Notes under the pieces: generated by a model
Databases searched by the model: none
What the model was told of the DNA's origin: nothing
The model's input: only the letters and a program-made list of their open reading frames with translations
Shown here: positions 4,024 through 62,305 of the stretch, one piece after another
Position numbering within the stretch: the first letter of the stretch is position 1
Layout of the letters: each line of letters starts with the position of its first letter
Program-made: the position numbers and the translations under genes
Assembly: GCA_018228665.1 (NCBI GenBank)
Contig: CP073692.1
Span: 1,178,001-1,242,000, forward strand
DNA length: 64,000 nucleotides
Direction: 5' to 3'
Origin: Faecalicatena sp. Marseille-Q4148
Lineage (GTDB): Bacteria; Bacillota; Clostridia; Lachnospirales; Lachnospiraceae

Positions 4024-4959
4024 CTAGTAAAATGTTACTACATCATTCTTTGGCCGGTACGCCAGTTCAATCTCATCAAGTTCCAGCATCGGCGCTTCTC
4101 CATCTCTTGTCATGACTGTCTCATAGGTGACAGTCACTGTTACCCAGGAGCGTTTTTCATATGGGATTTCTTCCCTGCATTTACACAAAAATCCGAGAAA
4201 CTTAATGTCTTCCTCACAGCATGTCATCACAAAACGTCCCGGCACAAATTCATTCTGTGCCAGTTTTTTCCCTTTGTATACCTGTGCAAGAAAACGGATT
4301 TTCTTTCCGCGATAGTGTTCCGGATGCTCCAGCGCATCAATATACCAGAGTCCGTAATCAATATCATCCACTTCAATCAGATCTTTCGTAATATCAAATG
4401 GAAGCGCTTCTTCTCCCTGCTCAAACGCTTCTCCGTTCTCACGCTCAAATACAATCTGTGCTTTCGCATTCATAACCTTAATACTGCGCCGGATCTTAGC
4501 CCAGTCTGTCTCATCGGTACAGCGATTCACAATTACCAGGTCTGATTGAAATACCTGTTCTAAAAACATCGTTCTCATATTTGTCAGATATAATTCTGCT
4601 GTCGTGGCATCTACGGTTGAATAAATCCCGGTAATCATCCAGCCTTGCGGCATCTCTGTCTCCAGAATTGTACTCATCTCCCATGTTCCATTATACTCAA
4701 TCAGTACATGATCCGGATGATAATTGCGCCAGATTCCCATAAGAAACTCCTTGTTAAACTGTTCTTCTTCCTCCAACACAAGCGGAATGATATTTGCCTT
4801 TTTCAGAAGCGCCGGATCGAACGCTTCTTCTCCTTCTTCACAGAGGATAAGCACTGTCTGACGATACTCATCAAAATCCGAATGTTCCACCGCATCGATT
4901 ATAAGAGACGTCTTTCCGCTATCTAAAAATCCGGTAAAAATATCTACTGCTGTCTCCAT
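4024..4959 (-). CDS. COG0523/CobW-like GTPase fused to a YcgQ (TIGR03943/DUF1980)-like C-terminal domain
   Basis: 311 aa from ATG 4959, which has GGAGAG 5 nt upstream; the longer frame to 4995 overlaps the previous gene and has no ribosome site. N-terminal GTPase: P-loop GFLDSGKTSLI (residues 8-18), LIEYNGTWEM in place of the usual LIEPSG, and NRCT in place of NKxD. The CxCC metal motif of true COG0523 chaperones is missing. Residues about 210-300 (HPEHYRGKKIRFLAQV, GRFVMTCCEEDIKFLGFLC) resemble the C-terminal domain of YcgQ, a partner of the permease YcgR in zinc-regulated operons. It lies 10 nt downstream of the canonical family member. Likely role is metal trafficking; the fusion is the unusual part. 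Confidence 0.7.
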   Translation of the reverse strand: METAVDIFTGFLDSGKTSLIIDAVEHSDFDEYRQTVLILCEEGEEAFDPALLKKANIIPLVLEEEEQFNKEFLMGIWRNYHPDHVLIEYNGTWEMSTILETEMPQGWMITGIYSTVDATTAELYLTNMRTMFLEQVFQSDLVIVNRCTDETDWAKIRRSIKVMNAKAQIVFERENGEAFEQGEEALPFDITKDLIEVDDIDYGLWYIDALEHPEHYRGKKIRFLAQVYKGKKLAQNEFVPGRFVMTCCEEDIKFLGFLCKCREEIPYEKRSWVTVTVTYETVMTRDGEAPMLELDEIELAYRPKNDVVTFY

Positions 4960-4969
4960 ATCTTCTCTC

Positions 4970-5971
4970 CTACAGTCTGTCCAGTGCTTCTTCATTCAGC
5001 TTTGTTCCGATCACACAGATCTTTCCTGTGTAGTCCGGATGTCCGTCCCGGATTTCATACTCCTGCGGTACATAATCAAATTCAATCCAATTTCCTTCCG
5101 TTCCCTGAACAATTCCTTTTGCCCGCAGCACCTCTCCATATGCTTCTGTCTCAGAAAATGCCTTCAGCAAAGTCTCCACTTCTTCTTTTGTATATTTCTT
5201 TACAGTCTCTCTTCCCCAACTTGTAAACACTTCATCCGCATGGTGGTGGTGATGCTCATGGCAGCCACAGCTCTCTTCATGGTCATGGTGATGCTCGTGG
5301 CAACTGCAGCCTTCTTCATGGGCATGGTGATGCTCGTGGCAGTTACATTCTTCTGAAATCAGATTCGCTGCATCTTTTGAGTGTTCCAGTGCCTGACGGA
5401 TTACTTCTCCATTCAACTGATCCCACGGTGTTGTAATCAGTGTTGCTGTCTGATTCTCTTTTCGAATCTGCTCCACACACGTCTGTAATTTCTCTTCCGT
5501 CATCATTTGTGTACGACTCAAAACAATTGTTGTTGCATGTTCAATCTGATTATTATAAAATTCTCCGAAATTCTTCATGTAAAGCTTTGCTTTTTTTCCA
5601 TCTACAACAGTAATACGACTGTTCAGCACAATTTCTGCCTGCTCGCGAACGGCTTCTACCGCCTTTGCCACATCGGATAATTTGCCGACTCCGGATGGTT
5701 CAATGAGAATCCGATCCGGATGATATTCTTCTACAACTTTCTTCAGTGCTGTGCTAAAATCTCCTACAAGTGTACAGCAAATACATCCTGAATTCATTTC
5801 CGTAATCTCAATTCCGGCTTCCTTCAAAAAACCTCCGTCGATCCCAATCTCTCCAAACTCATTCTCAATCAGTACGATCTTCTCTCCCTGAAATACACTT
5901 GAGACGAGCTGTTTGATAAATGTTGTTTTCCCAGCTCCTAAAAATCCTGAAATAATATCAACTTTTGTCAT
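4970..5971 (-). CDS. COG0523-family GTPase, putative zinc metallochaperone with His/Cys-rich repeats
   Basis: 333 aa from ATG 5971, with GAAGGA 6 nt upstream. Walker A GFLGAGKTTFI (residues 9-19), the family metal motif GCICC (residues 62-66), LIEPSGVG, and a CobW C-terminal domain with EFDYVPQ near the end. Between the GTPase and C-terminal domains are three 13-residue repeats of the form CxCHEHHHxHEE, an obvious Zn2+/Ni2+ store. Such proteins deliver metal to client enzymes or respond to zinc limitation. First gene of a two-gene operon with the degenerate paralogue. No zinc-type operator was recognised upstream. Confidence 0.88.
   Translation of the reverse strand: MTKVDIISGFLGAGKTTFIKQLVSSVFQGEKIVLIENEFGEIGIDGGFLKEAGIEITEMNSGCICCTLVGDFSTALKKVVEEYHPDRILIEPSGVGKLSDVAKAVEAVREQAEIVLNSRITVVDGKKAKLYMKNFGEFYNNQIEHATTIVLSRTQMMTEEKLQTCVEQIRKENQTATLITTPWDQLNGEVIRQALEHSKDAANLISEECNCHEHHHAHEEGCSCHEHHHDHEESCGCHEHHHHHADEVFTSWGRETVKKYTKEEVETLLKAFSETEAYGEVLRAKGIVQGTEGNWIEFDYVPQEYEIRDGHPDYTGKICVIGTKLNEEALDRL
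5231..5347 (-). repeat. Three tandem 39-nt repeats encoding CxCHEHHHxHEE units
   Basis: Units 5309-5347, 5270-5308 and 5231-5269, each 13 codons, differ at a few positions. They lie inside the COG0523 gene and keep its frame, so copy-number change would lengthen or shorten the metal-binding loop without a frameshift. Confidence 0.9.
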
Positions 5972-6101
5972 GTAAATCCTTCTTTCTTTGTTCTCTGCAC
6001 TGCCATATATTATACCATTTTTTTCACATTTGAACAGTACCAAATCCATCTCCGGATTTTCTGCGTTTCCCCTGAAACTTCCGCTTTCTCTCCTTCTGAT
6101 T

Positions 6102-6130
6102 TTGACAAACACGCTTTCAGCCGCTATAAT
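6102..6130 (+). promoter_or_regulatory. Consensus sigma-A promoter of the VanZ-like gene
   Basis: TTGACA (6102-6107), 17 nt, TATAAT (6125-6130), directly before AAGGAGG and the TTG start at 6159. Confidence 0.85.
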
Positions 6131-6158
6131 AAAATTCGATTGTAAGGAGGTGCGACAA

Positions 6159-6665
6159 TTGAACTCATTGATTTCAAATAAACGTATGCTATTTTGTCTT
6201 CTTTCATTTCTTCCGGCTCTGGCAATGATGTGTCTGATCTTCTCATTTTCTGCCCAGACCGGTGAAGCGTCCGGCAGTCTCAGCAGCAAGATCAGCCACA
6301 TGGCAGTCAATGTCGGCAATCAGGTACTTCATCTGGAGCTCACGGAATCTGAAATCGAATCTTATGCCGAATATCTGGAACATCCGATACGGAAACTTGC
6401 CCATATGACAGAGTATTTTATCCTGACGCTTCTTGTCCTTTTCCCACTTTTCGTCTGTGGGCTCAGGGGACGGGCACTGATTCTCACTGCGCTCATCTTC
6501 TGTGTCTGTTTCGCTGCAACTGATGAATTTCATCAGTCTTTTGTTGCCGGGCGGGGACCATCAGTAAAAGATGTGGGGATTGACAGCATTGGTGTCTGCG
6601 CTGCCTCCCTTCTTTATTGGATAGCAACATTCTTCCACCGGAAACATCATACCTTCGCTGATTAA
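6159..6665 (+). CDS. VanZ-like family membrane protein
   Basis: 168 aa from TTG 6159, chosen because AAGGAGG ends 8 nt before it; no in-frame ATG is near the ribosome site. Four hydrophobic segments and the VanZ-like motifs RKLAHMTEYFIL and ATDEFHQSFVAGRGPSVKDVGID match the family, whose best-known member modestly raises teicoplanin resistance. Most chromosomal homologues have no known role. The gene is alone, with its own promoter and terminator, next to ferritin in convergent orientation. Confidence 0.85.
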   Translation: MNSLISNKRMLFCLLSFLPALAMMCLIFSFSAQTGEASGSLSSKISHMAVNVGNQVLHLELTESEIESYAEYLEHPIRKLAHMTEYFILTLLVLFPLFVCGLRGRALILTALIFCVCFAATDEFHQSFVAGRGPSVKDVGIDSIGVCAASLLYWIATFFHRKHHTFAD

Positions 6666-9978: not shown

Positions 9979-10103
9979 GCCTTAACCGAAAGAGTTTTGC
10001 CGACTGACGGATATGTGGAAAACCACAGGGGAAGCAGAACTTTGAAAAGCCGACCGTCTGGGCAGTATATGTGTTATTCGCATATGCTGCCTGTTTTATT
10101 TTC
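9979..10103 (+). promoter_or_regulatory. ZTP (pfl motif) riboswitch with terminator expression platform
   Basis: The leader has the hallmarks of the pfl/ZTP aptamer: a hairpin TGTGG-AAAA-CCACA followed by GGGGAAGC in the 5' half, then the conserved 3' element GCCGACCGTCTGGGCA at about 10050-10065. The end of that element overlaps a terminator stem, GGCAGTATATG (10061-10071) with CATATGCTGCC (10081-10091), then TGTTTTATTTT. Binding of ZTP/ZMP, which rises when 10-formyl-THF is short, should block the terminator and switch on fhs. fhs is a known target class of this riboswitch. Confidence 0.88.
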
Positions 10104-12142: not shown

Positions 12143-13897
12143 CTAAGCAACTGTTTCTTCGATTTTTTTCTCAAATTTTTGGATTTTTTCATGAAGAAAA
12201 CGATGGTATTTATTTATATTTCTTCCAATCGCATACAGCATGAATTCTTTATATACTTTTTCGGATGTCCGGTAATTGAATCGGCGGAAACTGTCATTTT
12301 CTTTAATGTCTCCAAAATGTCCCTCTGTCTGGATGGAACGAATCTGACGATTTAAGATCCCTTTCTCACTCTGGATGTTTTTATGGGATTCTTCTTTCAA
12401 AGCTTCCCATTGTTCGTTGATCTTCATCACTTTATTTTTCTCTCTATCTTTTTCGGCATCATATTTATAGAGACATTTTGCTTTATGTTCACAACCACTG
12501 CAGTCTGCACATCCATACACTTCAAAGGTTTGTGTATAACCAGTCTGTGCTTTTGTTTCTGTTCGGATATGATGCAATTCTCTTCCGTCATGGCAAATAT
12601 AATACAACTCATCTTCAAATATCTGCGTTTTCATGTTGTAATACTTTCCGATTTCTTCTGTATACGCACGTGTTTTCCGTTTTTCATGATCCTGCAGCTT
12701 GATATAGCTGGAGATTTTATGTTCTTTTAAGTACAGTAGGTTTCTTTCGCTGCAATACCCGCTATCTGCTGTCACTTCCTCAAGAATATCCCCAAATGCT
12801 TTTTGATGTTTTTCCAAAACCGGAATCAACGTATTATAATCTGTCCGATCATTGCTGACATAAGTCTGGACAATGAAATAATTCTCTACTGCAATCTGAA
12901 CATTATATGCCGCTTTTAATTGCCCGTTCAGCATATGATCCTCTTTCATCCGCATAAAAGTAGCTTCCAGATCTGTTTTGGAATAACTGTTTCTGTCTGT
13001 TCCCATGATCTCAAAACACTCTTTATATCCCATAAGACGTTCACCACAGGCTTCCAATTCTTCGTAAAGCTGCTGGATTTCCGATTTTCTTTTTCCTTTT
13101 CCATAAACAAATGTAATCTGTTCCTGTTCTGCTATCTGTATCAGATTTTTTTGGAGCTTCAGTATCTCCAACGGAGAACAATTGTCAATCTCTATGATTG
13201 TATTATTGGATAACTTTTTATGTTTTGTCAGTTTTCTTTTTCGGTTCTTTTCAATGACATCCCGTACTTTCTCCATTCCTTCGATCACGAACATATGTGC
13301 ATGGGGAATGTCATATTTGATGCCATACTCATTTTCATCAATCAAAACGTTATACTTTTGATACAATAAATCAATAGTATCCAGTAGTCCTGCAAGATGA
13401 TAATTGATTGTTCCTCTCCAGACAAACGTATAACGGTTCGCATTGGCTTCTATTTTTGTACCGTCAATAAAAAGATTTTTTAGTGTGATGAATCCTTCTT
13501 TTTGCAGGCGACGAAGAAACTGATAATTCAGCTCATCCAGTACATCAGCGGTCAGTTTCTTATTCTTGAAGTCATAAAAAGCATCCCGTTTCGGCTTCTG
13601 ACCTTTCGTAAGCCAGATAAAGGCGAGATCTCTTTCACATAATTCTACAATACGGTCAACAGCTCTTATCCCACGCATGTTTGCGTAAGTAACTACAGCA
13701 TACATCATGATTGGGTTGTACCCGGTTCTTCCCTTATCAGAACAATTGGCTAATAAGCCAGAAAAATCTAACTCCTCCATCACTTTTTTCAGGGTATAGA
13801 CTGGATCGTCGTCTGGTAAACACAATTCGAAGAAACTGAAGTTAATTTTCTGTTGCCCTAATTCAAAAAAATCGTTATAATAGTCTTTGTTTAGCAT
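12143..13897 (-). CDS. IS1182-family transposase
   Basis: 584 aa from ATG 13897. N-terminal DUF772-like part (DKGRTGYNPIMMYAVVTYANM), DDE core with FIDGTKIEANANRYTFVW and TADSGYCSERNLLYL, and a C-terminal zinc-type cluster (CADCSGCEHKAKC) typical of IS1182 enzymes. No frameshift or internal stop was seen, so it may be active. The extended frame to 14026 crosses a hairpin and lacks a ribosome site. TGTTATAAT, an extended -10 at 13904-13909, lies so close to the ATG that the mRNA may have almost no leader. Confidence 0.9.
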   Translation of the reverse strand: MLNKDYYNDFFELGQQKINFSFFELCLPDDDPVYTLKKVMEELDFSGLLANCSDKGRTGYNPIMMYAVVTYANMRGIRAVDRIVELCERDLAFIWLTKGQKPKRDAFYDFKNKKLTADVLDELNYQFLRRLQKEGFITLKNLFIDGTKIEANANRYTFVWRGTINYHLAGLLDTIDLLYQKYNVLIDENEYGIKYDIPHAHMFVIEGMEKVRDVIEKNRKRKLTKHKKLSNNTIIEIDNCSPLEILKLQKNLIQIAEQEQITFVYGKGKRKSEIQQLYEELEACGERLMGYKECFEIMGTDRNSYSKTDLEATFMRMKEDHMLNGQLKAAYNVQIAVENYFIVQTYVSNDRTDYNTLIPVLEKHQKAFGDILEEVTADSGYCSERNLLYLKEHKISSYIKLQDHEKRKTRAYTEEIGKYYNMKTQIFEDELYYICHDGRELHHIRTETKAQTGYTQTFEVYGCADCSGCEHKAKCLYKYDAEKDREKNKVMKINEQWEALKEESHKNIQSEKGILNRQIRSIQTEGHFGDIKENDSFRRFNYRTSEKVYKEFMLYAIGRNINKYHRFLHEKIQKFEKKIEETVA

Positions 13898-13903
13898 AGT
13901 TCC

Positions 13904-14012
13904 ATTATAACATGGAACGGAGAAAATGATGGTTGTCGTTAGCCATCTTTTTCTCTTTTTATGGAAAAGTTTCAGGGGCAGGTTTGACTCATACAAGTCA
14001 AATCTGCCCCTG
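13904..14012 (-). promoter_or_regulatory. Transposase promoter with upstream shielding hairpin
   Basis: Minus strand: CAGGGGCAGATTTGAC (14012-13997) pairs with GTCAAACCTGCCCCTG (13988-13973) with one G-T pair, loop 8 nt, then AAACTTTTCC. This may stop incoming transcription. Downstream is an extended -10, TGTTATAAT, lying within the palindrome GTTCCAT-N6-ATGGAAC. Confidence 0.55.
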
Positions 14013-14067
14013 TTTGGAACTATCATTTCCCGACAGCCCCTTTTTTTATTTTTTCATAAATTTTTCT

Positions 14068-18588: not shown

Positions 18589-20346
18589 TTATTCTTCTCC
18601 ACAATCAACTGTCTCCAGACCTTCAAACTGCATTTTATAATAATGGGCGTAGAGACCATTCATACCCAGAAGTTCTTTATGCGTTCCTCTCTCGGCAATT
18701 CCTGCTTCGTTAATAACAATAATCTCATCGGCATTGCGGATCGTAGAAAGTCTGTGTGCGATCGTAATCGTTGTCCGGTCTTTCGCCAGAGCTTCCAGGC
18801 TTTTCTGTATCCGGCGTTCACTCTCATTGTCCAGAGCGCTTGTCGCTTCGTCAAGAATCAGAATCGGAGGATTCTTAAGGAACACCCGCGCAATAGAAAT
18901 CCGCTGTTTCTGTCCTCCTGAAAGTCTTGTTCCCCGCTCTCCTACAAATGTATCGTATCCTTCCGGCAGTTCCATAATAAATTCATGGATATTTGCCTTC
19001 TTAGCAGCCTCAATAATCTCGTCCATCGATGCATCCGGCTTTCCGTAGGCAATATTCTCCCGGATCGTTCCACAGAACAGATAGACATCCTGCTGCACAA
19101 TTCCAATCTTACTGCGGAGACTCTTCATCGTCAGATCTCTTACATCTTTCTGGTCTACAAGTACTCTTCCGCCTGTTACATCATAAAATCTTGGAATGAG
19201 TGAACAGATTGTTGTCTTGCCACCGCCGGACGGCCCTACAAGCGCTACGGATCTTCCCGCTTCAATCTTAAAGGAAATATCTGACAATACCGCTTCTTCA
19301 TCCGTATACCGGAAAGATACATGATCAAACTCAACCTCGCCTGATACATCTTCAATCTCTTTCGCATCTTCTTTATCCTGAATATCCGGCTCTGTCGCAA
19401 GCACTGCAAGAAAACGCCGGAATCCGGACAAGCCTTTCTGGATCATCTCCGTTAATTCCACAAGAATCTGCACCGGACTAATAAAAATGCCGATATACAG
19501 CGCAAACATCGCAAGATCTGCTGCTTCCATCTTACCCTGTGCAATGAATAAACCTCCAAATACCAGCGTGGAAAGATACATCAGTCCCTGGAAAAATGCA
19601 TTTCCACTCATAAAAAATCCCATGCACTGATAGTTATTTCCTTTGGAAACAAGGAAATTTTCATTGCTTCTTGTGAATTTCTCCCACTCAATCTCCTCAT
19701 TTGCAAAAGACTGTACCACCCGGATTCCTGCAAGGGTATCCTGAAGGCTGGCATTAATATCCCCAATCTTTCTCCGGTTATCCATAAAGGTTGCCTGCAT
19801 CCGCTTATTCTGGCGCACAGAGAAAATGACCATAAATCCAACAACAACTGCAAGAATCATTGTCAATCTCCAATTGATCATTGTCAGGAAAATAAATGAA
19901 CCGACAATCTTAATCACAGAAATGAATAAGTTCTCCGGTCCATGGTGAGCGAATTCTGCAATATCAAACAAATCTGATACCAATTTGCTCATCATCTGTC
20001 CTGAGTTGTTCGCATCATAATAAGAAAAAGATAATTTCTCATAATGTTCAAACAACTGCTGGCGCATATCCCGCTCCATTCTGGCTCCCATCATATGTCC
20101 CTGATAACTCACATAATACTTACAAAATGCCTGGATCACATACATTAGAAGAAGACCTATTCCAAGCGGAAGCAGCGCTTTAAGAATCAAGCTGCTGTCC
20201 TCTGTAAACAGCGTAGCTGTCAGCGTTCTTAAAATCTGCGGAAATGCCAGATCAATGAAACTGATCAGCGCCGCACAAATTAAATCCAAAAAAAATACCG
20301 TCTTATACGGTCCATAGTATTTAATAAATTTTTTTAATGTATACAT
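18589..20346 (-). CDS. ABC-type exporter half-transporter (MsbA/LmrA-like)
   Basis: 585 aa with six TM helices (residues about 15-310) followed by a nucleotide-binding domain: Walker A GPSGGGKTT, Q-loop VQQDVYLF, signature LSGGQKQRISIAR and Walker B ILILDEATSALD. It should act as a homodimer. Possible substrates are lipids, drugs or peptides, and the sequence does not decide. It starts at ATG 20346 after AAAGGAGGGG and is the first gene of the pepV transcript. Confidence 0.88.
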   Translation of the reverse strand: MYTLKKFIKYYGPYKTVFFLDLICAALISFIDLAFPQILRTLTATLFTEDSSLILKALLPLGIGLLLMYVIQAFCKYYVSYQGHMMGARMERDMRQQLFEHYEKLSFSYYDANNSGQMMSKLVSDLFDIAEFAHHGPENLFISVIKIVGSFIFLTMINWRLTMILAVVVGFMVIFSVRQNKRMQATFMDNRRKIGDINASLQDTLAGIRVVQSFANEEIEWEKFTRSNENFLVSKGNNYQCMGFFMSGNAFFQGLMYLSTLVFGGLFIAQGKMEAADLAMFALYIGIFISPVQILVELTEMIQKGLSGFRRFLAVLATEPDIQDKEDAKEIEDVSGEVEFDHVSFRYTDEEAVLSDISFKIEAGRSVALVGPSGGGKTTICSLIPRFYDVTGGRVLVDQKDVRDLTMKSLRSKIGIVQQDVYLFCGTIRENIAYGKPDASMDEIIEAAKKANIHEFIMELPEGYDTFVGERGTRLSGGQKQRISIARVFLKNPPILILDEATSALDNESERRIQKSLEALAKDRTTITIAHRLSTIRNADEIIVINEAGIAERGTHKELLGMNGLYAHYYKMQFEGLETVDCGEE

Positions 20347-20402: not shown

Positions 20403-20431
20403 GAAAACCGATGCCAGACGCACCGGTTTTC
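20403..20431 (-). terminator. Weak terminator downstream of the Cys-rich protein gene
   Basis: GAAAACCG (20403-20410) pairs with CGGTTTTC (20424-20431); TATTG follows on the minus strand. Confidence 0.55.
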
Positions 20432-20443
20432 CATTTTTCAAAA

Positions 20444-20602
20444 TCATTTTTTATGACAAAACCCTGCCGACGTACAGCCGGAGCAGCCTCCTCATCCTTT
20501 TCCCTTTTTTTTACTCATATTTATGATAATTGCTGCAACACTTAGAAGCAAAAGCAGCGAGACAACAATTGTCCCCATATGTTCCATCAGAAATCCTAAC
20601 AT
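20444..20602 (-). CDS. FeoB-associated Cys-rich membrane protein-like, with in-frame TGA at codon 37
   Basis: From ATG 20602 (AGGAGG upstream) the frame encodes one TM helix (residues 10-28), a KKKGKG linker, then TGA (20494-20492) and a continued frame reading GGCSGC...GFCHKK to a second TGA at 20446-20444. Members of the FeoB-associated Cys-rich family are about 50 aa with exactly this layout: one helix, a basic linker, a CxxCxxC cluster and a terminal CH. The first TGA stands where the first cysteine is expected. The product is therefore either a 36-aa truncated peptide or a 52-aa protein with selenocysteine (or other readthrough). An iron-type operator and a good promoter precede it. No feoB is nearby. 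Confidence 0.65.
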
Positions 20603-20623
20603 CTCTGTTCCTCCTTTTCTTTG

Positions 20624-20675
20624 GTTAGTCTTTACTAACAACCATATTTTAACGCTTTCCTGTTATCATTGTCAA
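20624..20675 (-). promoter_or_regulatory. Promoter with DtxR-type palindromic operator for the Cys-rich protein gene
   Basis: Minus strand: TTGACA (20670-20675), 18 nt, TAAAAT (20646-20651), and the palindrome GTTAGT-N4-ACTAAC (20624-20639) near the transcription start. The box resembles binding sites of DtxR-class iron regulators and matches those before the ABC pair at 37324. Confidence 0.7.
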
Positions 20676-20711: not shown

Positions 20712-21497
20712 TTACCCAAGCGCCACATCCAAAATCATCATGACAAGAAATCCCACAATAAATCCGAGTGTTCCCGCTTTTCCCTCTTCTTCCATATGCG
20801 CCTCCGGAATTAATTCTTCTACTACCACATAAATCATCGTTCCTGCCGCAAATGACAGCGCCAGAGCAATACATGATCTGGCTGCTCCGGCAAAGATCGC
20901 CGCCAGCACACCAAAGATGGGCTCCACGATTGCCGTCATACTGCCAATAAAAAATGCCTTCCATTTTCCCATCCCCTCTTTCTGAAGCGGCAGTGCCACT
21001 GCAGTTCCCTCCGGAAAATTCTGAATGGCAATCCCAATCGTCAGTGCAATTGCACCGGATAAAAGCGCCGGATTTTCCAGCTGCTGTGCTGCCAGGGCAA
21101 AAGCAAGCCCTACTGACATCCCTTCCGGAATATTATGGACTGTAATTGCCGTTACAAGCATCATCGTACTTTTTCGCAAAGATGTTTCCTGTCCCGCTTC
21201 CCTCCGATACCACCGTTTCAAAAGACTGTCTGCAAGCAGCAGCAAAAGTACCCCTGTCAAAAATCCAACTGTTACAACCAACCAGCCAATCTGCCCCTGT
21301 TCCTCTGCAAAATCAATTCCCGGAAGCAGCAAAGACCAGACCGATGCCGCGATCATTACGCCGCCTGCAAACCCAAGAAAACCGCTCTGCCAAATTTCAT
21401 TTACATCCCGCTTCACACAGAAAACTCCCGCTGCTCCCAGCGTTGTTACTAAAAAAGTAACGATTGTTCCTAAAAATGCAAAAAGAATCCCATTCAT
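20712..21497 (-). CDS. ZIP-family metal transporter
   Basis: 261 aa from ATG 21497, preceded by GGAGGTGA. About eight TM helices, with the two metal-binding helices of the ZIP family: HNIPEGMSVGLAFALAA (helix 4) and QNFPEGTAVALPL (helix 5). His is replaced by Gln in the second motif. The cytosolic loop between TM3 and TM4 (RRREAGQETSLRK-like) has no His cluster. It should take up Zn2+ or other divalent metals, as ZupT and gufA-type proteins do. The Cys-rich gene lies downstream but has its own promoter. Confidence 0.88.
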   Translation of the reverse strand: MNGILFAFLGTIVTFLVTTLGAAGVFCVKRDVNEIWQSGFLGFAGGVMIAASVWSLLLPGIDFAEEQGQIGWLVVTVGFLTGVLLLLLADSLLKRWYRREAGQETSLRKSTMMLVTAITVHNIPEGMSVGLAFALAAQQLENPALLSGAIALTIGIAIQNFPEGTAVALPLQKEGMGKWKAFFIGSMTAIVEPIFGVLAAIFAGAARSCIALALSFAAGTMIYVVVEELIPEAHMEEEGKAGTLGFIVGFLVMMILDVALG

Positions 21498-21543
21498 CAC
21501 TATCACCTCCACAATAGTATATGAATGGAATTCTTTTTCGTTC

Positions 21544-39932: not shown

Positions 39933-41405
39933 ATGATACCATATAAACAGCTTTCTTTGGCAGATATTTTTTCGGATTGCCAAGATAAATTTGAAAATGA
40001 CAAACCTGCATTTCTTTCTCTATTGGAAACTCATATCGATTTGGATGAGTTTATTCCGATTTCTTTCAGAAATCATTTTTATGCATCAACGGGACGAACC
40101 CGTAAATACCCTTTACAAGCTTTTTTGTGGGCTTTGATCATCCAACGTATTTTCTCCATCCCTACGGATCAACTTCTTTTGACTTTTCTCACTTACTCAA
40201 AACCTCTTCGTGAATTTTGTGGTTTTACCAAAGTCCCAGACGCTTCCAAAATAACCCGCTTCAAACAGGACTTTTTAGGTGACCTGCAGCTTGTTTTCGA
40301 TAAACTTGTTGATGTTACTGAGCCTATCTGTCAGGCAATTGACTCTGCAAAAGCGGATATGACTATCTTTGATTCTTCCGGTATTGAAGCATTCGTTACA
40401 GAAAATAATCCAAAGTATGCTAACAGAATTATCAAACAGCTTAAAGCTTATGCAAAAACTCAGGGATTTGATAAATCTTACGACCCCTACAAAGCTGCTT
40501 ATGGTTCCATGCCTTCCCATGCTTCTGCTAACCCTGAAATCAAACAACTTTATATCAATGGCCATTTTTGCTATGTTTTCAAATTTGGCATTGTTACCAA
40601 TGGGCTGGGAATTATTCGTCATATCTCTTTTTATAATAAAGACTTTATGTATGCACATCCTGATATTATTATCGAAAAGAAATCCGACTCCCCTGATGAG
40701 GATAAAAGTGTTCATGATTCAAAGCTTTTGATTCCGACACTCAAAGACTTCTTTTCCAAACATCCACTGATTAATCCGAAAACTTTCCTTGGAGATGCAG
40801 CTTTCGATACCACACAGCTCTATAAGAGCCTTCTTACTGGTAACACTTTTGGTAATGACAAACATTTCGCCAAAGCTTATATTCCACTGAATGCAAGATC
40901 CGGACTTGAACATCCAGACTATACCATCAATGAAGATGGTATCCCCTGCTGTCCTCATGACCCTTCGCTTTCTATGAAGTACGAATGCACTTCTAAACTA
41001 AGAAACGGTATTACCAGATTCAAGTTTGTCTGTCCCAAAATGAAGTGGGCTTACGATAAATCTACCAGAAAATCCTATCGGCAATGCTGTTGCAAAACTC
41101 CCTGTACCACATCAAGAGGTGGTCGTATGGTTTATATCTATCCTGAAAAGAATCTGCGTGCTTATCCCGGAACGATTCGCGGAACCGAAGAATGGGATAA
41201 TACCTACAAAATCAGGACTGTTGTGGAAAGAAACATCAATCACATCAAGGATAATCTTTGTCTTGCAGGACGCCGAACCCAGAATGAGAGGACTTTGTAT
41301 GTGGATTTAATTCTTGCAGGTATTACACAACTCATCAGTGTCGTTCTTGCAGATAAAATCAAACATCACGAATACATTCGAAGTTTAAAACCTCTCATAG
41401 CATAG
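39933..41405 (+). CDS. DDE transposase (DUF772 N-terminal type)
   Basis: 490 aa. N-terminal DUF772-like stretch (RKYPLQAFLWALIIQRIFS), DDE core with TIFDSSGIEAF and FLGDAAFDTTQLY, and a C-terminal TVVERNINHIKDNLCLAG that supplies the Glu. It resembles IS1182/IS5-type enzymes; the exact family was not decided. Intact frame, so it could be active. AAAGGAG lies 14 nt before the ATG, an unusually long spacer. Confidence 0.85.
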   Translation: MIPYKQLSLADIFSDCQDKFENDKPAFLSLLETHIDLDEFIPISFRNHFYASTGRTRKYPLQAFLWALIIQRIFSIPTDQLLLTFLTYSKPLREFCGFTKVPDASKITRFKQDFLGDLQLVFDKLVDVTEPICQAIDSAKADMTIFDSSGIEAFVTENNPKYANRIIKQLKAYAKTQGFDKSYDPYKAAYGSMPSHASANPEIKQLYINGHFCYVFKFGIVTNGLGIIRHISFYNKDFMYAHPDIIIEKKSDSPDEDKSVHDSKLLIPTLKDFFSKHPLINPKTFLGDAAFDTTQLYKSLLTGNTFGNDKHFAKAYIPLNARSGLEHPDYTINEDGIPCCPHDPSLSMKYECTSKLRNGITRFKFVCPKMKWAYDKSTRKSYRQCCCKTPCTTSRGGRMVYIYPEKNLRAYPGTIRGTEEWDNTYKIRTVVERNINHIKDNLCLAGRRTQNERTLYVDLILAGITQLISVVLADKIKHHEYIRSLKPLIA

Positions 41406-52252: not shown

Positions 52253-52503
52253 CTTCTCTTTATTTTCGTTTATCCTCTGACCACATCTCACCAGAGTTTT
52301 GCAGCCCGGATTTTCCCCTTTCCTTAGAATAAATGTGTGAAATCTTCCTAAATTTATATATTTATTCTAGTATAGCATAAATTATAGATTAGATGTCAGA
52401 TTAATTTCTTTTCTTCTTTTTTCCAGTTCCGCTTTCGTACCGCTTTTTGTTATGATAATTCTGCAGCTACAGCTACTTATTTTTTATGCAAGGAGGATAT
52501 CAT

Positions 52504-53478
52504 ATGCCAACTTATTATGACCAAAAAGCTCACACTTGGTTCTGCAAATTTTATTACACGGATGCACAGGGAATGCGCCGTCAGAAAAAGAAACGTGGGT
52601 TCAAACGCCAGCGGGATGCAAAAGCATGGGAACGTTCTTATTTATCTTCTACGTTTTCTTCTAATGAAATGACATTCCAGCAACTTACAGATCTTTATCT
52701 GTCCGATATGGAGAAGCGCCTGCGCCAGACAACCATGAATACAAAGCAATACATTTTTCGCGATAAGATTCTGCCTTATTTTGCCAAACAAACACTCTCT
52801 TCAATTACCTCTGCCCAGATCCGTTCCTGGCAAAATGAACTTCTTACCCTGCAAAAGAACGATGGCACAGGCTATTCATCCACTTATCTAAAAACAATTC
52901 AAAATCAATTGTCCGCAGTGTTTAACTATGCTGTCCGCTATTATCATCTCTCTGAAAATCCATGTCTGCGCGCCGGTTCTCTCGGTAAGAGTTCTGCTGA
53001 AGAAATGCATTTCTGGACTTATCAGGAATTTAATTCTTTCTTAGCTGTTATCGACAAAGAACGGTTTCGACTTGCCTTTCTTCTTCTATATCATACCGGT
53101 ATCCGTATAGGAGAACTTCTTGCCCTGACCCCCGGCGATTTTCATTTTCAGAATAAACAACTTTATATCTGTAAATCTCTCCAGCGACTGCACGGCGAAA
53201 CTCTGATCACTTCTCCCAAAACACCAAAAAGCATTCGTTTCATTGCTCTGCCTTCATTTTTGTTGCTTCGAATTCAAGAATATATTGAGAATTCCCATAT
53301 TTCCGAGCAAGACTTTATTTTTCCTTTTACCAAATCTCTGCTCGGCAAACGTCTCAAACAGTACGCTGACCTCTCCGGTGTGCCTAAAATCCGGCTTCAT
53401 GACCTTCGGCACCCGTATGTCAAGCCCACGACAAAAAAATTTATAACTTTTTTTGAGGCTTTCCGGGCAGCCATATAG
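52504..53478 (+). pseudogene. Tyrosine recombinase/integrase, truncated by an inserted element
   Basis: 324 aa from ATG 52504 (AGGAGG, 7 nt). N-terminal arm-binding domain, SAM-like core-binding domain (residues about 65-160) and the catalytic start are normal: HTGIRIGELLAL (Arg I) and IRLHDLRH (HxxR). From base 53413 the sequence no longer continues as an integrase; it ends with an unrelated tail PYVKPTTKK. The second His/Trp and the nucleophilic Tyr are missing, so it cannot recombine DNA. The lost 3' part should lie beyond the right end of the inserted element. Confidence 0.88.
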
Positions 53479-53504
53479 CCACCCGCAGCTCTTTCATACG
53501 GCAC

Positions 53505-55049
53505 TCATGCCTCCTTTCCCGATTCGTCTATTCCCAAGAAATCCTGCGTCACATATTCAATCTCAATCCGATTCCCCGGAAAAATATAAACCTTACTAAT
53601 AAGCCTGTCAATCAGGGCTTGTGTCAGGGTGTCGGCGCTGCCTACTTCCCGGACAATTTCCCGCTGTTTCAGCTTTGCCTCATAATCACTCTGTATCTGT
53701 TTGGTCTGTGCGGTAATAGCAGCATGGACATTTTTTGCCTGCACCAGCTCCGCATCATATACCGCCTTGCGCTCCTGATAGGTTTCCAGGTCAATCTCTC
53801 CAAGCGCATACTGTTCATAAAGCTGCCGTTTGCTGTCCTGGATAGAGTGCAGCTTTTCTTCATGCTCGGCCTGCTGGATCGTCTGCAAATCCAGCTTGTC
53901 CTTGCTGCTGTCAATCCCCAATGCCGGCCCCATCTGTGCACGGGTCGTATCAAAGACCACCTGCTCCAACTCCGACATTTTGACCTTTACGCCATAACAG
54001 GGAAGTTCTTTTGCTACCTCGGAATGACGGCAGTAAAACCATGCCCCGTTTCTAAGTGACATGGCATGGTCGCAGCAGCCGCAGAATACTTTCCCGCGGA
54101 GAAGGTAGTCACGCCGCTTTTTATTCGGAAGGGAAAAACGCCTGATCGAAGCATTGGCTTTCTCAAACAGCTCCATGCTTACGATTGCCGGGTGGTGGTC
54201 TGGGATTTTGAACCACTCGCTTTCATCTTTTAGCTGGACACGCCGGCTGCCGATTTCCCTGACCTTGCGTTTCCCGATTACATAGGTACCGATATACCGC
54301 TGATCCTCCAGCATCCGAAGGACTGTTGAGCTGCTCCAGACGCCATGCGTCCGGGAAACATTATAGTGATCCTTGCCTTTACTTTTCCGGTATTCTCCAG
54401 GCGTAGGGATGTTCATGGCATACAGTTTTCTTGTAATCTCGGCGGCTGTATTTCCGTCAGCCGCCCATTCAAATATCTGCCGGACAATCCCTGCAGCGTC
54501 CTCGTCCGGCTCCATACGCCCGTCTGCGCTCTTGCGGTAGCCATAAGGACAGATAACACTCTGATATTCTCCCCGGCGCATTTTCGCATATTTGGCGCTT
54601 TTCGTTTTCATGGACATATCCCGGCTGTAACATTCGCTGATAAGGTACTTAAAGGCAACGTCAATCCCGCCGGTATCGCCTTTGAAATTGGCGGTGTCAA
54701 AATCATCACTGACAGAGATAAACCGGGTGTGGTAGAGGGGAAATACCCGCTCAATGAAATATCCGGTTTCAATGCTGTTACGGCCAAACCGGGAGAGGTC
54801 TTTTACGATAATGCAGTCAATCTTCCCGGCCTGGACCATCGTCAAAAGTTCCTGTACCGCAGGGCGCTCAAAATTCGTACCTGTATGGCCGTTATCAACA
54901 AATTCCAGCACTTCGCCGTTATCCCATTCCGGCAGCGACATGGCCTTTTCCCGGAGGATCAGTTTTTGGTTGGGAATACTCAAACTTTCAGTCTTAAAGT
55001 CCTCCACGGACAGACGGATATAAAGGGCGATCACATATTTTTTGTGCAT
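53505..55049 (-). CDS. Large serine recombinase, terminal copy
   Basis: 514 aa. Resolvase domain with the nucleophile in IALYIRLSVED, DLSRFGRNSIETGYFIERVFP, a recombinase domain (YGYRKSADGRMEPDEDAAGIV) and a zinc ribbon (FCGCCDHAM, then FYCRH and PCYG), followed by a coiled coil at about 380-460. It is the gene nearest the element end, the usual place for the integrase. It overlaps the next recombinase by 19 nt. Length is typical of TnpX/TndX-type enzymes. Confidence 0.92.
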   Translation of the reverse strand: MHKKYVIALYIRLSVEDFKTESLSIPNQKLILREKAMSLPEWDNGEVLEFVDNGHTGTNFERPAVQELLTMVQAGKIDCIIVKDLSRFGRNSIETGYFIERVFPLYHTRFISVSDDFDTANFKGDTGGIDVAFKYLISECYSRDMSMKTKSAKYAKMRRGEYQSVICPYGYRKSADGRMEPDEDAAGIVRQIFEWAADGNTAAEITRKLYAMNIPTPGEYRKSKGKDHYNVSRTHGVWSSSTVLRMLEDQRYIGTYVIGKRKVREIGSRRVQLKDESEWFKIPDHHPAIVSMELFEKANASIRRFSLPNKKRRDYLLRGKVFCGCCDHAMSLRNGAWFYCRHSEVAKELPCYGVKVKMSELEQVVFDTTRAQMGPALGIDSSKDKLDLQTIQQAEHEEKLHSIQDSKRQLYEQYALGEIDLETYQERKAVYDAELVQAKNVHAAITAQTKQIQSDYEAKLKQREIVREVGSADTLTQALIDRLISKVYIFPGNRIEIEYVTQDFLGIDESGKEA

Positions 55050-56683
55050 GGTTCCACCGCCTTTCCCTGAAATTCATTTTTGAACCGGAACATTACATGG
55101 ATATTCCGCTCATGGTCGATCTCGATCCGCTCGATGAGCCGTTCAATCAGCTCTGCCGTCAGCACATGGTCCTGTGCCAGCGACTTGGCATCTTTTTCCA
55201 TTTCCCGGTAGCGTATAAGCTGGCTGTCCAGAACATCCATAGATTTTTCGAGCGCTTCAATCCCACCGGACAGCTCATGGATGGATTGTTCATAACCTGT
55301 TTTTAATTCAAAATATTCCTCGCCTGTCAAAATGCCCTGTACAAAATTTTCATACAGTCCTTGGATCAGCAAACGCTTTTTCTCGATTTCCTGCCTTTGG
55401 GTTGACATCTGAGCTTTCAGCTTATCTTTTTCCTGTTTCTGTCTTGCCTCCAACTGAAAGAGAGGGAGGGACATCCCAAGGGCAACGGCCAGCTCTTTTT
55501 CCAGAATAGATGTAACCGTAGCGATCAGTTCCGTTTCCGGCATCCTCACGCCTTTACAGCCTTTTTGCTGTACCCGGCTGTTGGTAAGGCAATGAAAATG
55601 GTAAACATCCGGGCCTTTTTTGCGTTTCTCCCGCTGCCGGTGAAGGCTCCTGCCGCAGTCTGCACAGAATACCTTTCCTTTGAAAATATTCGGGGTATAG
55701 GGTTGTTTGGAAACCGCCCGGCTTTCCTCACATACCTGTTTCCGGTATTCCTGCACCGCTGTAAAAAGTTCCCGGCTAATGATTGGTTCATGGGTGCCTT
55801 TCGCAACAATCAGGTTGTCCTCGCCGGCTTTAACCTGCTGGTGGTCTACAATCTTTGTCTTGCCCTGCACTAAATCACCGGTATAGACTTCGCTTTCCAG
55901 AATCTTCATCACTGTGCGGGTCTGCCATTTACCGCTCCCGATTAGGCCGGGGCTGGTAATCTCACCGGTGGATTTTTTGTAATGGCTAGGCGCCGGAATC
56001 CCCATCTCGTTTAAGTTAAGGACAATCCGATTCAGCGAAACCCTGTCATGTGCCCATTCAAAAATCTGCTTCACCACAGGGGCAGCAGTTTCATCAACCA
56101 GTAGCTTATGGCAGTTATCCGGGTCTTTCCGGTAGCCGTAGGGCGCCCGCCCGCCGATGTAATCGCCGTCTTTCATGGCCTGCCGTGCCTGGGCTTTGAT
56201 CTTCCGGCCAATATCCAAAGCGTATGCCTCGTTTATCATATTCTTCAGCGGGAGCATAATGCCGCCGTGGAGATTGCCGGGGTCTGCCGTATCAAACTGG
56301 TCCGTCACCGCGATAAAACGGACATTGTGGGAATAAAAATACTGTTCAATGTAGTAGCCGGTGTCAATGGAATTACGCCCTAACCGGGAGAGATCCTTGA
56401 CGATCACACAGTCAATATGACCTGCCTCAATATCCGAAAGCATCTGCTGGAAACCGGGGCGGTGGAAATTCGTGCCTGTCGCCCCGTTGTCGATATAGGT
56501 ATCGTAGACAACGAAATCCGGCTTGTCCGCCAGGAAGTCATTCAGCACCAGCTTCTGGTTCTCCACGGAACAGCCGCGTTTCTTGTTATCTTCCACAGAA
56601 AGACGGATATACAGCGCCACATGCACATATAAGGACGGGGCCGGCATGGAAACCACCGCCTGTTTCCTGCTCTTTCTTGCCAT
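55031..56683 (-). CDS. Large serine recombinase, middle copy
   Basis: 550 aa with an N-terminal basic extension before VALYIRLSVED (catalytic Ser). DLSRLGRNSIDTGYYIEQYF, APYGYRKDPDN, the zinc ribbon FCADCGRSLHRQ with CLTNSR and KGCKG, and a C-terminal coiled coil are present. Its ATG abuts the stop of the third copy, so all three are translated together. Confidence 0.92.
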   Translation of the reverse strand: MARKSRKQAVVSMPAPSLYVHVALYIRLSVEDNKKRGCSVENQKLVLNDFLADKPDFVVYDTYIDNGATGTNFHRPGFQQMLSDIEAGHIDCVIVKDLSRLGRNSIDTGYYIEQYFYSHNVRFIAVTDQFDTADPGNLHGGIMLPLKNMINEAYALDIGRKIKAQARQAMKDGDYIGGRAPYGYRKDPDNCHKLLVDETAAPVVKQIFEWAHDRVSLNRIVLNLNEMGIPAPSHYKKSTGEITSPGLIGSGKWQTRTVMKILESEVYTGDLVQGKTKIVDHQQVKAGEDNLIVAKGTHEPIISRELFTAVQEYRKQVCEESRAVSKQPYTPNIFKGKVFCADCGRSLHRQREKRKKGPDVYHFHCLTNSRVQQKGCKGVRMPETELIATVTSILEKELAVALGMSLPLFQLEARQKQEKDKLKAQMSTQRQEIEKKRLLIQGLYENFVQGILTGEEYFELKTGYEQSIHELSGGIEALEKSMDVLDSQLIRYREMEKDAKSLAQDHVLTAELIERLIERIEIDHERNIHVMFRFKNEFQGKAVEPCTKNM

Positions 56684-58312
56684 TTAGCCCACCTTCCTTT
56701 CTTCATTATGCGCGGCAATCTGTTCCGCCAGGGAAACCGCTTTCTGGTATTCGTCCTGATAGTTAAATTCAATGTGCAGCTCGTCCTTGCCCATGACCCG
56801 TATGCTGCGGATAAGCTGCATGACCGCCCTGCGGTCAATATCCTCCATTGTGGAGAATTGCATGAAATGGTTGATCCAGCGGTTCCGCTCGCTGCGGTTC
56901 TCCAGTACGTCCGTCAGCTTTTCGTTCCACTCGGCGATTGCTTTCTGCAGCAGCTCAATATCCGCATTGTATTTCCGCTTATAAGAAAGAAATTCTTCTT
57001 TGGTAAGGATCCCGCTCACCAGGTTTTCATAGAGCTTGGCTTTGAAGCCTTCCGTCTGTGCCACACGTTTTTCATTTACCCTGATCTGCGCGGCGTATTC
57101 CTGGGCCAGCTCCCGGTTGATACGTTCCTGGCTGATACTGGACAGCAGAGCATCCAGGGAGGCGACATTCTCAATATGGCCTTTTAAGCTGTCCTGCACG
57201 CACTCGATCAGGTCAGATTCCTTTACCATGACAGAGGATGTGCAGCCGTTCTTTTTCCCGGTCGGGCAATAGTAATAATGGTATTCCTTATCCTTATAGC
57301 GGTTGGTCTTGCGGGTCATGCGGCAGCCGCAGCAGCCACAGATTAAAATGCCGGAGAACAGATATACTTTGTCTGACTTCGGGGAGGTCCGGGTGTCAAT
57401 CCTGCGGAGCCGCTGCACCAGGTCAAAATCATGCTTCTGTATGATGGCTTCATGGGCGCCCTCTACCCGGATCCATTCAGAGGAAGGCTTATCCTCACGC
57501 TCTTTCAGTTTGAAGTGAGGCGTGGTCTGCTTTCCCTGAACCAGCGTTCCGGTATAGGTTTCATCCTGCAAGATACGGATAATAGTAGTAGCGGACCATT
57601 TACAGTCCTTGCGATCCGTATAGCCGCCTTTTGCATGTGGCATCCCATTGTTCCGCTTATATGCCAGCGGGGAGAGTACGCCCATCCAGTTCAGCTCGTC
57701 TGCGATATGGGAAGCGCTGAACCCCTCCAGACGCTTTCTGAAAATATCCCGCACCACATTGGCGGCATATTCGTCAACTTCCAGGCTCTTATGCTTATCA
57801 CCGACTTTTATATAGCCGTAAATCGTAAAGGCTCCTACAAAATCGCCGCTGCGCCGTTTCACTTCCAGGGCGCTCCGGGTCTTGACGGAAATATCCCGGC
57901 AGTAAGCCTCGTTCATAATGTTTTTCACGGAAACCGTGAGGTCATCGGCAGCATCGTTTTCCGTGTCCACGTTATCGTTGATGGCGATAAAGCGCACACC
58001 GTAGGCCGGAAATACCCGGCGCATATAGCGGCCGGTCTCTATGTATTCACGTCCCAGGCGGGAGAGATCCTTGACAATTACACAGTTGGCCTCGCCCTGT
58101 TCAATCATACGCATCATTTCCTGAAATGCCGGGCGGTCAAAAAGGACACCGCTGTAACCGTCGTCAATCTTTTCTGCCACGACCTCAATCTCCGGGTGCC
58201 GGGCAATGTAATCATCGATCAGCCGCCGCTGGTTGGCGACGCTGTCGCTTTCCGTCGTCTTGTCATCGGTATAAGAAAGACGGATGTACTTGATTGCTTT
58301 GTAAACCTGCAT
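56684..58312 (-). CDS. Large serine recombinase, first copy of the operon
   Basis: 542 aa from ATG 58312 (AAAGGAG, 9 nt); the longer frame to 58381 is leader. Catalytic motif AIKYIRLSYTDD, DLSRLGREYIETGRYMRRVFP, recombinase domain with FTIYGYIKVGDKHKSLEVD, zinc ribbon CGCCGCRMTRKTN with YYYCPTG. It is more divergent from the other two than they are from each other. Confidence 0.92.
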   Translation of the reverse strand: MQVYKAIKYIRLSYTDDKTTESDSVANQRRLIDDYIARHPEIEVVAEKIDDGYSGVLFDRPAFQEMMRMIEQGEANCVIVKDLSRLGREYIETGRYMRRVFPAYGVRFIAINDNVDTENDAADDLTVSVKNIMNEAYCRDISVKTRSALEVKRRSGDFVGAFTIYGYIKVGDKHKSLEVDEYAANVVRDIFRKRLEGFSASHIADELNWMGVLSPLAYKRNNGMPHAKGGYTDRKDCKWSATTIIRILQDETYTGTLVQGKQTTPHFKLKEREDKPSSEWIRVEGAHEAIIQKHDFDLVQRLRRIDTRTSPKSDKVYLFSGILICGCCGCRMTRKTNRYKDKEYHYYYCPTGKKNGCTSSVMVKESDLIECVQDSLKGHIENVASLDALLSSISQERINRELAQEYAAQIRVNEKRVAQTEGFKAKLYENLVSGILTKEEFLSYKRKYNADIELLQKAIAEWNEKLTDVLENRSERNRWINHFMQFSTMEDIDRRAVMQLIRSIRVMGKDELHIEFNYQDEYQKAVSLAEQIAAHNEERKVG

Positions 58313-58451
58313 AAAAAAACACTCCTTTCTTTGCGCAGAAAAATCCCCGCAATTCAAGAAGTGTGGCTGTGCCGTATTCAATTCCTTTTCCGATTCTTAT
58401 TCTACCACGCCATTGCGGGAAAGTCAGCCCCTTTCCTGAAAAAAATCTGGC

Positions 58452-58667
58452 CTACCGCAGAATCCCTTTGATACATTCCTCCAGGGTGGCGCCTCCTGCT
58501 GCAAAGCTGGCCTGTACAGTAAAACGTCCGCATTTAAAGCGGTAGGGATCCTTGATCTGCCGTACAAATTCCGTGATCCGTTCCTCACGGGAAAGTTCCT
58601 TATTGACGGAAACTTCCCGGATGTCAACCAGTGCGCCGGTACCTCCGGCAGCAGTCATATTTTCCAT
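58452..58667 (-). CDS. Small conserved mobile-element protein (DUF6870-like)
   Basis: 71 aa from ATG 58667 (AGGAG, 8 nt). The core VSVNKELSREERITEFVRQI followed by KDPYRFKCGRFTVQASFA and LEECIKGIL resembles short proteins that sit beside serine recombinases on Clostridial elements. The family name is my recollection and not certain. It is probably a recombination or copy-control accessory. The frame stays open upstream to 58946, but that part is not convincing protein. Confidence 0.6.
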   Translation of the reverse strand: MENMTAAGGTGALVDIREVSVNKELSREERITEFVRQIKDPYRFKCGRFTVQASFAAGGATLEECIKGILR

Positions 58668-59263
58668 GATACCAACTCCTTCCTGAAAATTTCTGATTAT
58701 CAAAACCACATGAATAAGTCGGGCCTGCGCTCTTACAGTCACAGACCCGGCCCATTGTATCTGATTTCGATTAGCTGCCGTATTTGCCACGCCCCCCGGC
58801 AAGCCCTGAATAAACAGGGCGGGACTGTTACAGGCTGCGGATAGCGTCGCCGCATCATAGCCCCGCATACGCCGCCGCTTTGCCAAAGCAAGCAAACGCC
58901 GCAGGAACTCTCCCCAAGTCTTTAGGGAGCCGTGAGGAAGTACCATTATGATCTGTGCCGTCGTCGCGTCCGGCCTGCCACAGCCGGTTTCGTGGGTTGC
59001 GTTTATCGCTCGGACAGCCTGAATCCATCACCTCCTTAGGCTGCCTGTCACCGCGCCGCCCCATTGCCGCTCGGAACACAGAATGAAGTACCTGTAACAG
59101 CGTGTATTCGGTTGTCAAGGAGCAAGCGAGGGGCGTGGCAGTTATGACAGTTTTTCAGTTGGGGCGGGCGGCTGCATGTGCGCCGCCACACCCGCCAGGC
59201 TTGTCCCGCCGAATTATGTCCCTCTACTATACATTTCATTTTCGGGGGCAAAGTTGCCGTCTG
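58668..59263. other. GC-rich interval without a convincing gene
   Basis: 596 nt. Several open frames exist but none has a good ribosome site or a recognisable protein. GCCCTG-AATAAA-CAGGGC (58802-58819) is a perfect short hairpin, and GGGCC/GGCCC segments near 58720-58755 could pair. It may encode a structured RNA or hold a cis-acting site; I cannot tell. Confidence 0.4.
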
Positions 59264-59686
59264 TCAGGATATTTCTTTCAGAAATTTTTCCAGACTCCGC
59301 AGACCGGCATTGATAGAGCGGGTGATTCTGCTCTTATGAGTGCCTTCCGCTTTTGCAATTTCCGACTTGCTCATACCGAGAAAAAAGTGTGCGTAAATCC
59401 GGTTCCGCTGTTTTTCAGGCAGAGAGGCAAGCGCCTGATATAGCCGGGCATTTTCCTCTTTTTGTTCCAGAATTTCAGCCGGCGTCAGGACGATCACCAG
59501 CGCATCACGTTCCACACTGGCATCGTAGTCCAGAGAAAAATATGCCTTATGCCGGTATGTACGCAGAATATAGGAAGCCTCCGCCAGTTTGTATTCCCGA
59601 AGCAGATCCGCCACTTCGTCAGGCACTTCAACAACAGTATCCTGTATATAATAGGGATAGTAATCTTTAAGATTGATTTTCTTCAT
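59264..59686 (-). CDS. Sigma-70 region 4-like protein of a mobile element
   Basis: 140 aa from ATG 59686 (GGAGGAA, 6 nt). The C-terminal half is a sigma region 4 HTH (LASLPEKQRNRIYAHFFLGMSKSEIAKAEG, THKSRITRSINAGL). The N-terminus has no region 2. Such proteins, like the orf7/orf8-type regulators of Tn916-group elements, may activate transfer or excision genes. The long leader before it carries two terminator-like hairpins. Confidence 0.8.
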   Translation of the reverse strand: MKKINLKDYYPYYIQDTVVEVPDEVADLLREYKLAEASYILRTYRHKAYFSLDYDASVERDALVIVLTPAEILEQKEENARLYQALASLPEKQRNRIYAHFFLGMSKSEIAKAEGTHKSRITRSINAGLRSLEKFLKEIS

Positions 59687-59793
59687 AGTAAATTCCTCCA
59701 ATTTCGATTTTTTAGTTGACAGGCAAAATCGAAATCAGAGGGTGGGGAACGGCAGCCGGGACTGTCACACTCGCATTTTCTAAAACAGGGTAC

Positions 59794-59824
59794 AAAAAAA
59801 CGCGCCTGCAAAAACACAGACGCG
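59794..59824 (-). terminator. Terminator-like hairpin in the leader of the sigma-like gene (proximal)
   Basis: CGCGCCTG (59801-59808) pairs with CAGACGCG (59817-59824), one G-U pair. TTTTTTT follows on the minus strand. Confidence 0.75.
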
Positions 59825-59889
59825 CACCAAAACAGAGCATTGTAAAAGCATACTGGAATATGCCGGAATTTGTATTTTTCTGTCGAACC

Positions 59890-59924
59890 AAAAAACCCCG
59901 CAGTTCTTTGACGAATTGCAGGGT
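59890..59924 (-). terminator. Terminator-like hairpin in the leader of the sigma-like gene (distal)
   Basis: ACCCCGCA (59895-59902) pairs with TGCAGGGT (59917-59924) with one mismatch. TTTTTT follows on the minus strand. Confidence 0.72.
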
Positions 59925-60159
59925 CTAATAATTGAATTCTCGAATAAAGACGCGGACTGAGCCCGTAAGGTACTTTCCATAGCATTCCAGATTCTCCCTC
60001 CCCGAAAGGAGGAAGTAAGCAAGCTTACTTACAGCAGGTCCCCTTTCTTTGAGGGCATTATATATGGGGAAATTCCATATCCTTACCTGTTTTATCCTAT
60101 TTCCAACCAAGATGACCGCAAGTTTTGGCATTAGTAGATAGTATTTGTGTAATTAGGAC

Positions 60160-60203
60160 AAAAAAGAACAAAGCCACAAGATAAAACATACCTTGCAGCT
60201 TTG
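60160..60203 (-). terminator. Terminator of the winged-helix regulator gene
   Basis: CAAAGC (60169-60174) pairs with GCTTTG (60198-60203), extended by further pairs; TTCTTTTTTG follows on the minus strand. Confidence 0.75.
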
Positions 60204-60207
60204 CTCA

Positions 60208-62088: not shown

Positions 62089-62131
62089 AATATAAACCTC
62101 CTTTTTTATTGCATTGTTCCTTTGTTTTTTG

Positions 62132-62174: not shown

Positions 62175-62305
62175 CATAAGAATAAAGCACAAAAGCTACA
62201 CGATACAGTTCAAAGACCGTTCGTGTCAGACTTACGTGTTTATTATGTATACGCACACAAAAAAAGCCCACTGAGTGGAAAAATACCTCTACTTTTTATT
62301 GCATA

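Follow-up and report, generated by a model that had tools for sequence, protein, structure and literature searches.

Introduction

FeoB-associated proteins are described, in the accessible part of PMC8749426, as small putative open reading frames downstream of feoB that occur mostly in Firmicutes and Bacteroidetes and may or may not be translated. For the bacterial SECIS, the accessible text of PMC13188914 sets limits of 3-9 nt for the loop, 4-16 bp for the upper stem and 16-37 for the spacing, together with a G in the first two loop bases and an energy of at most -7.5 kcal/mol. As far as the accessible text of that paper goes, the term 'feob' does not occur in it, and PF12669, the FeoB-associated family, is absent from its table of 119 families. 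In a full-text search of the open-access literature covered, no paper was found that connects a FeoB-associated protein with a selenoprotein or selenocysteine.

Here we describe a gene of this family that is interrupted by an in-frame TGA. It is located in a window of 64,000 nucleotides, by which we mean the whole stretch of DNA analysed. A sequence-only reading had left it open whether the TGA was a selenocysteine codon, a readthrough site or a point mutation; in our analysis, a nonsense allele is the better reading, and selenocysteine is rather unlikely.

Results

The interrupted frame and its family

The features of the locus are given below, in the order in which they occur on the minus strand; P0002, P0004 and P0005 are close alleles of the encoded protein.

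20712..21512, minus strand: upstream neighbour, ZIP-family metal transporter (PF02535)
20646..20675, minus strand: promoter-like site TTGACA-18-TAAAAT, by consensus match only
20624..20639, no strand assigned: perfect inverted repeat GTTAGT-N4-ACTAAC, placed between the promoter-like site and the start codon, a possible metal-regulator operator
20610..20616, minus strand: ribosome-binding site AAGGAGG, read from the sequence
20495..20602, minus strand: 36-codon open frame with a short N-terminus, one membrane helix (by hydrophobic stretch) and the basic linker MLGFLMEHMGTIVVSLLLLLSVAAIIINMSKKKGKG, which aligns with PF12669 homologues
20505..20512, minus strand: run of eight A in the linker; P0005, back-fitted from its protein, fits as one A shorter
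20492..20494, minus strand: in-frame TGA at the first tail Cys column of the family, with the same end point in P0002 and P0004
20454..20494, minus strand: SECIS-like hairpin from the TGA on, found by folding, with the apical loop UGUAC 15 nt after the TGA, outside the published spacing of 16-37
20447..20491, minus strand: 15 further codons, GGCSGCTSAGFCHKK, which correspond to the family's Cys-rich tail by family match and alignment
20444..20446, minus strand: second in-frame TGA, at which the read-through frame ends
20404..20430, minus strand: inverted repeat AACCGGTGC...GCATCGGTT, which follows the second TGA and has a T-rich end; by eye it resembles a terminator, and it is absent from the listing of the promoter-site scan
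18589..20346, minus strand: downstream neighbour, ABC transporter with fused membrane and ATPase domains (PF00664, PF00005)

The reading frame starts at ATG 20602 and comprises 36 sense codons up to the TGA at 20494-20492, which is codon 37; the same frame then continues for 15 further codons, GGCSGCTSAGFCHKK, to the second TGA at 20446-20444. This layout was in agreement with the one proposed from the sequence only, as was the description of the tail, which reads UxxCxxC with the TGA counted in first place and has CHKK at its C-terminal end. Three cysteines are kept in the tail. With the TGA counted as Cys their spacing is x2, x2, x5, and the spacing in homologues varies too.

The read-through protein, scanned with C at both TGAs, scored 40.6 bits against PF12669 (cut-off 27), so that the earlier assignment to the FeoB-associated Cys-rich type was right. 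In the alignment with Lachnospiraceae homologues, where the query row carried C at the TGA position, the TGA fell in the first tail Cys column of most homologues aligned. Since homology is found on both sides of the TGA, its position is more than a chance coincidence. A second strong family match within the window was not found by a profile search, which was not independent, the query itself being in the profile.

Locus context

The neighbourhoods of homologues contained FeoB_C in 25 and the Gate domain in 27 of 74 flanking ORFs, which were a choice from the 114 listed. One homologue (L030, in genome G261) is a FeoB-associated micro-protein that likewise has a ZIP-like transporter gene as its neighbour; further on there is a frame recognised by eye as feoA-like. 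The inverted repeat between the promoter-like site and the start is a possible operator of the DtxR/MntR type. The pattern TTAG-N6-CTAA was present in 3 of 69 stretches upstream of homologues, in comparison to 0.3 expected from shuffles, which makes a weak case for a common operator; a site of this pattern, like that of the window gene, lies upstream of the L105 homologue. No Rfam match above the gathering score was obtained at the gene.

Several other features of the window were recorded. A ZMP/ZTP riboswitch (9990-10070, plus strand, 62 bits) lies immediately upstream of the gene for formate-tetrahydrofolate ligase (PF01268, 909 bits). Two adjoining CobW-domain proteins are encoded at 4027-6319 on the minus strand, one with a DUF1980 C-terminal domain and the other with a His/Cys-rich stretch, noted by eye. 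The region 52486-63986, which contains a phage-type integrase (52486-53475), three consecutive serine recombinases (53508-58381) and a MobA-type relaxase (62598-63986), is probably an integrative mobile element. There are also two transposase ORFs, at 12146-14026 on the minus strand (PF13751/PF05598) and at 39933-41402 on the plus strand (PF05598).

The hairpin after the TGA

The stem-loop with the loop UGUAC, which had been noticed earlier just after the TGA, was present on folding. Its energy was -16.1 kcal/mol in three of the four stretches folded and -18.3 kcal/mol in the longest, with z from -1.4 to -2.1, and the hairpin beginning at the UGA had -15.5 kcal/mol. About -15 kcal/mol was reached by 16 of 2354 window TGAs, counted among those passing the relaxed test described below. 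The hairpin itself exists as proposed and is SECIS-like. The candidate fails the limits given in the accessible text of PMC13188914 by its spacing of 15 against the minimum of 16, as measured with a script that had no upper limit on stem length, and the published way of counting could shift the spacing by one. In contrast, 14 of 15 controls from the lineage (8 FdhF and 7 SelD) passed at a spacing of 16-37. The loops differed as well: 14 of the 15 controls have a GG with which the loop starts or which adjoins its start (the types being GGUCU, GGGCU, GGAUU, CGGGU and GGU with the closing base), the exception being L165 with AGUU, whereas UGUAC is without GG.

When the limit was relaxed to 15 the candidate passed, but so did 139 of 2355 window TGAs. 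At the Cys codon of homologues the relaxed test was passed by 12 of 41, an approximate count, because no ORF was obtained at 4 of 45 loci and L021 was picked in the wrong frame. Given that so many other sites pass the same test, the hairpin says little. The strong stem speaks for selenocysteine, yet the composition of the tail favours such a stem.

Selenocysteine machinery and the TGA form in other genomes

SelB scored over its curated cut-off in 28 of 60 nearby genomes; of the 21 genomes ranked highest by PPDK DNA, 15 had it, including the nearest, G125. In all seven selB loci read (L165-L171) there was a SelD-like frame with an in-frame TGA, and the two that were scanned were SelD by TIGR00476. 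These observations suggest that the species could well make selenocysteine. SelD with an in-frame TGA was present even where FdhF had no match at E 1e-30 (genomes G125, G234, G034, G308 and G143).

We then looked at the family in other genomes. Matches were obtained in 84 of 397 Lachnospiraceae genomes, and among those listed none had an in-frame TGA, while one had an in-frame TAA. The in-frame TGA was likewise absent from the matches listed in 27 of 395 partly overlapping genomes under a stricter limit. The PF12669 model matched 160 of 236 genomes of the class, with no internal stop among the matches listed. Accordingly, the UGA form in more than one species was not seen among the matches listed in other genomes. 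As a positive control, FdhF matches above the cut-off were reported by the same tool to carry the selenocysteine TGA in 8 of 9 cases, in 7 of 28 SelB-bearing genomes.

The nearest genome by PPDK DNA was G125, at 89% (397 Lachnospiraceae, two of them without a score; 360 of 395 matched). Its group of 10 genomes contained no close copy of the gene and only four weak matches (best E 0.0066), and no congener was found in the groups of G261 (1 genome) and G234 (8 genomes). Another sample of 358 genomes of the family added, among those listed, no genome that had not already been covered. The ABC and ZIP genes occurred together in none of 13 stretches around ABC, ZIP or PPDK matches. The neighbouring lipoprotein belonged to one cluster at 99% (37 members) with the next relative at 41%, which indicates an isolated lineage. 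In plasmids, 18 kb gave no match at near identity, and a 551-base query gave only one distant ABC-transporter match; in phages there was no match at near identity, and in viral contigs no exact match for two 27-base patterns.

Close alleles

A protein search returned five proteins (P0002-P0006). P0002 and P0004, with four member sequences each, have 36 residues, differ from the window protein by one and two residues, respectively, and end exactly at the TGA codon, a position at which the proteins do not reveal which stop codon is used. The four close alleles (P0002-P0005) are known as proteins only, and their edits were counted by back-fitting to the window DNA: one for P0002, two for P0004, two for P0005 and seven for P0003. 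According to this fit, P0003 and P0005 share the N-terminus with the window protein and appear to be frameshifted before the TGA. P0005 fits with the linker change of P0004 and an A8 run shortened by one A; the remainder agrees with the window DNA up to the end of the P0005 frame, with no detectable difference downstream; the one-base homopolymer difference could be a sequencing error. All seven edits of P0003 are placed after codon 34, and in our reading of the fit its tail would be degraded, with one of three tail Cys left in the family frame. As regards constraint on the tail after the stop, P0003 thus appears degraded, and the tail is intact in the window and in the P0005 DNA as fitted.

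P0006 is a distant form with Cys (54% identity) and the only Cys-bearing one among the five proteins found, which included no close allele with Cys at the TGA position. Across the window and the four alleles, residues 1-34 have two variable places (L2V and L19F), and from the linker on the sequences vary in length and frame.

Discussion

Taken together, the locus probably carries a nonsense allele of an orphan FeoB-associated gene, common to an isolated lineage for which Lachnospiraceae are the closest genomes sampled. We regard this as the most economical explanation, because the TGA form occurs in no other genome among the matches listed, the same gene seems to have suffered other disabling changes in close relatives (P0003 and P0005, frameshifted as judged from their proteins), and a hairpin of this kind follows from the composition. 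It is supported by the PF12669 match, which extends to either side of the TGA, by P0002 and P0004 ending at the same codon, and by the ZIP and ABC transporters as neighbours, whereas FeoB_C is present in 25 of 74 ORFs that flank homologues. The promoter-like site, inverted repeat and ribosome-binding site that are present count against it, as does the frequency of SelB in relatives. Moreover, decay is not visible in the window copy, since three Cys and CHKK are kept and P0005 fits the downstream DNA.

With a nonsense allele, translation would most likely end at codon 37, giving a membrane peptide of 36 residues that has a basic end and lacks the Cys-rich, presumably metal-binding tail. The stop would not be recoded, and the tail would be a relic, still readable in the window and, by the back-fit, degraded in one relative. 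Such a loss may be tolerated, for example because another family member serves FeoB elsewhere in the genome.

Alternatively, SelB could recode the UGA as selenocysteine, which would make the gene a lineage-specific selenoprotein with a UxxCxxC tail on a FeoB-associated micro-protein. Several observations argue for this: the TGA occupies a Cys column and has homology to either side, the tail keeps its three Cys and CHKK, SelB is encoded by many nearby genomes (28 of 60, and 15 of the 21 ranked highest by PPDK), the SelD TGA is present in 7 of 7 selB loci, and the hairpin has -15.5 kcal/mol, matched in strength by 16 of 2354 window TGAs. Nevertheless, we find it rather unlikely: the loop lies 15 nt after the UGA against the limit of 16 in the accessible text of PMC13188914, within which 14 of 15 controls lie; UGUAC is without the GG of as many controls; no TGA form was found among the matches listed in other genomes; two of the four close alleles appear frameshifted, as judged from proteins; and the family is not in the accessible 119-family table. 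The missing TGA form, the frameshifts and the departure from the published limits favour the nonsense allele. Selenocysteine keeps some probability mainly on account of the machinery encoded by relatives and of the intact tail in the window. A new lineage-restricted selenoprotein with Sec as the first tail ligand, a link between selenium and ferrous iron, and a SECIS one base nearer the UGA is, in this form, unlikely.

Three further explanations accept or question the stop in other ways. The 36-residue membrane peptide could itself be the selected product of a real stop, with a dispensable Cys tail; expression signals look present, and the alleles differ at only two places in residues 1-34 and vary in length and frame from the linker on, but four alleles do not suffice to demonstrate selection and the homologues aligned do have the Cys tail, so we give this little credence. 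Alternative products might arise at the A8 run by slippage or by programmed frameshifting, as A_AAA_AAG stands in the right phase, is followed by the hairpin (a combination we take to be the dnaX type of signal) and may be a slippage hot spot, one A shorter in P0005 as fitted. However, neither alternative frame encodes the Cys tail, hence slippage would not rescue the family function, and we consider it very improbable. A sequencing or assembly error at the TGA, an option of the sequence-only reading, might be suspected in a single contig, but it is extremely unlikely because this codon is also the end point of P0002 and P0004, which deviate from the window protein at one and two residues, respectively.

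Should the TGA act as a plain stop, the locus would be a small example of decay in an orphan iron-transport accessory gene. It would also be a caution for selenoprotein screens, given that the composition of Gly/Cys-rich tails lets them fold into hairpins resembling a SECIS, as in the 12 of 41 homologues that pass the relaxed test at their Cys codon. If the TGA encodes selenocysteine, the selenoproteome would gain a new family and selenium would be tied to ferrous iron uptake.

In comparison with the bacterial UxxC selenoproteins in the accessible text of PMC13188914, the gene is similar in that its TGA is aligned with a Cys of homologues and has a hairpin just downstream. It differs in that the spacing and loop lie outside the SECIS model given there, no TGA form of the family was found among the matches listed in other genomes, and the family is absent from the accessible table. 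The spacing and loop are also unlike those of FdhF and SelD in related genomes. With its PF12669 homologues, on the other hand, the window gene shares one hydrophobic helix, a basic linker and a Cys-rich tail ending in CHKK. Its linker and tail are shorter than in most of them, many of the homologues have one tail Cys more, and the window gene has no adjoining feoB and is cut by a TGA at the first Cys of the tail.
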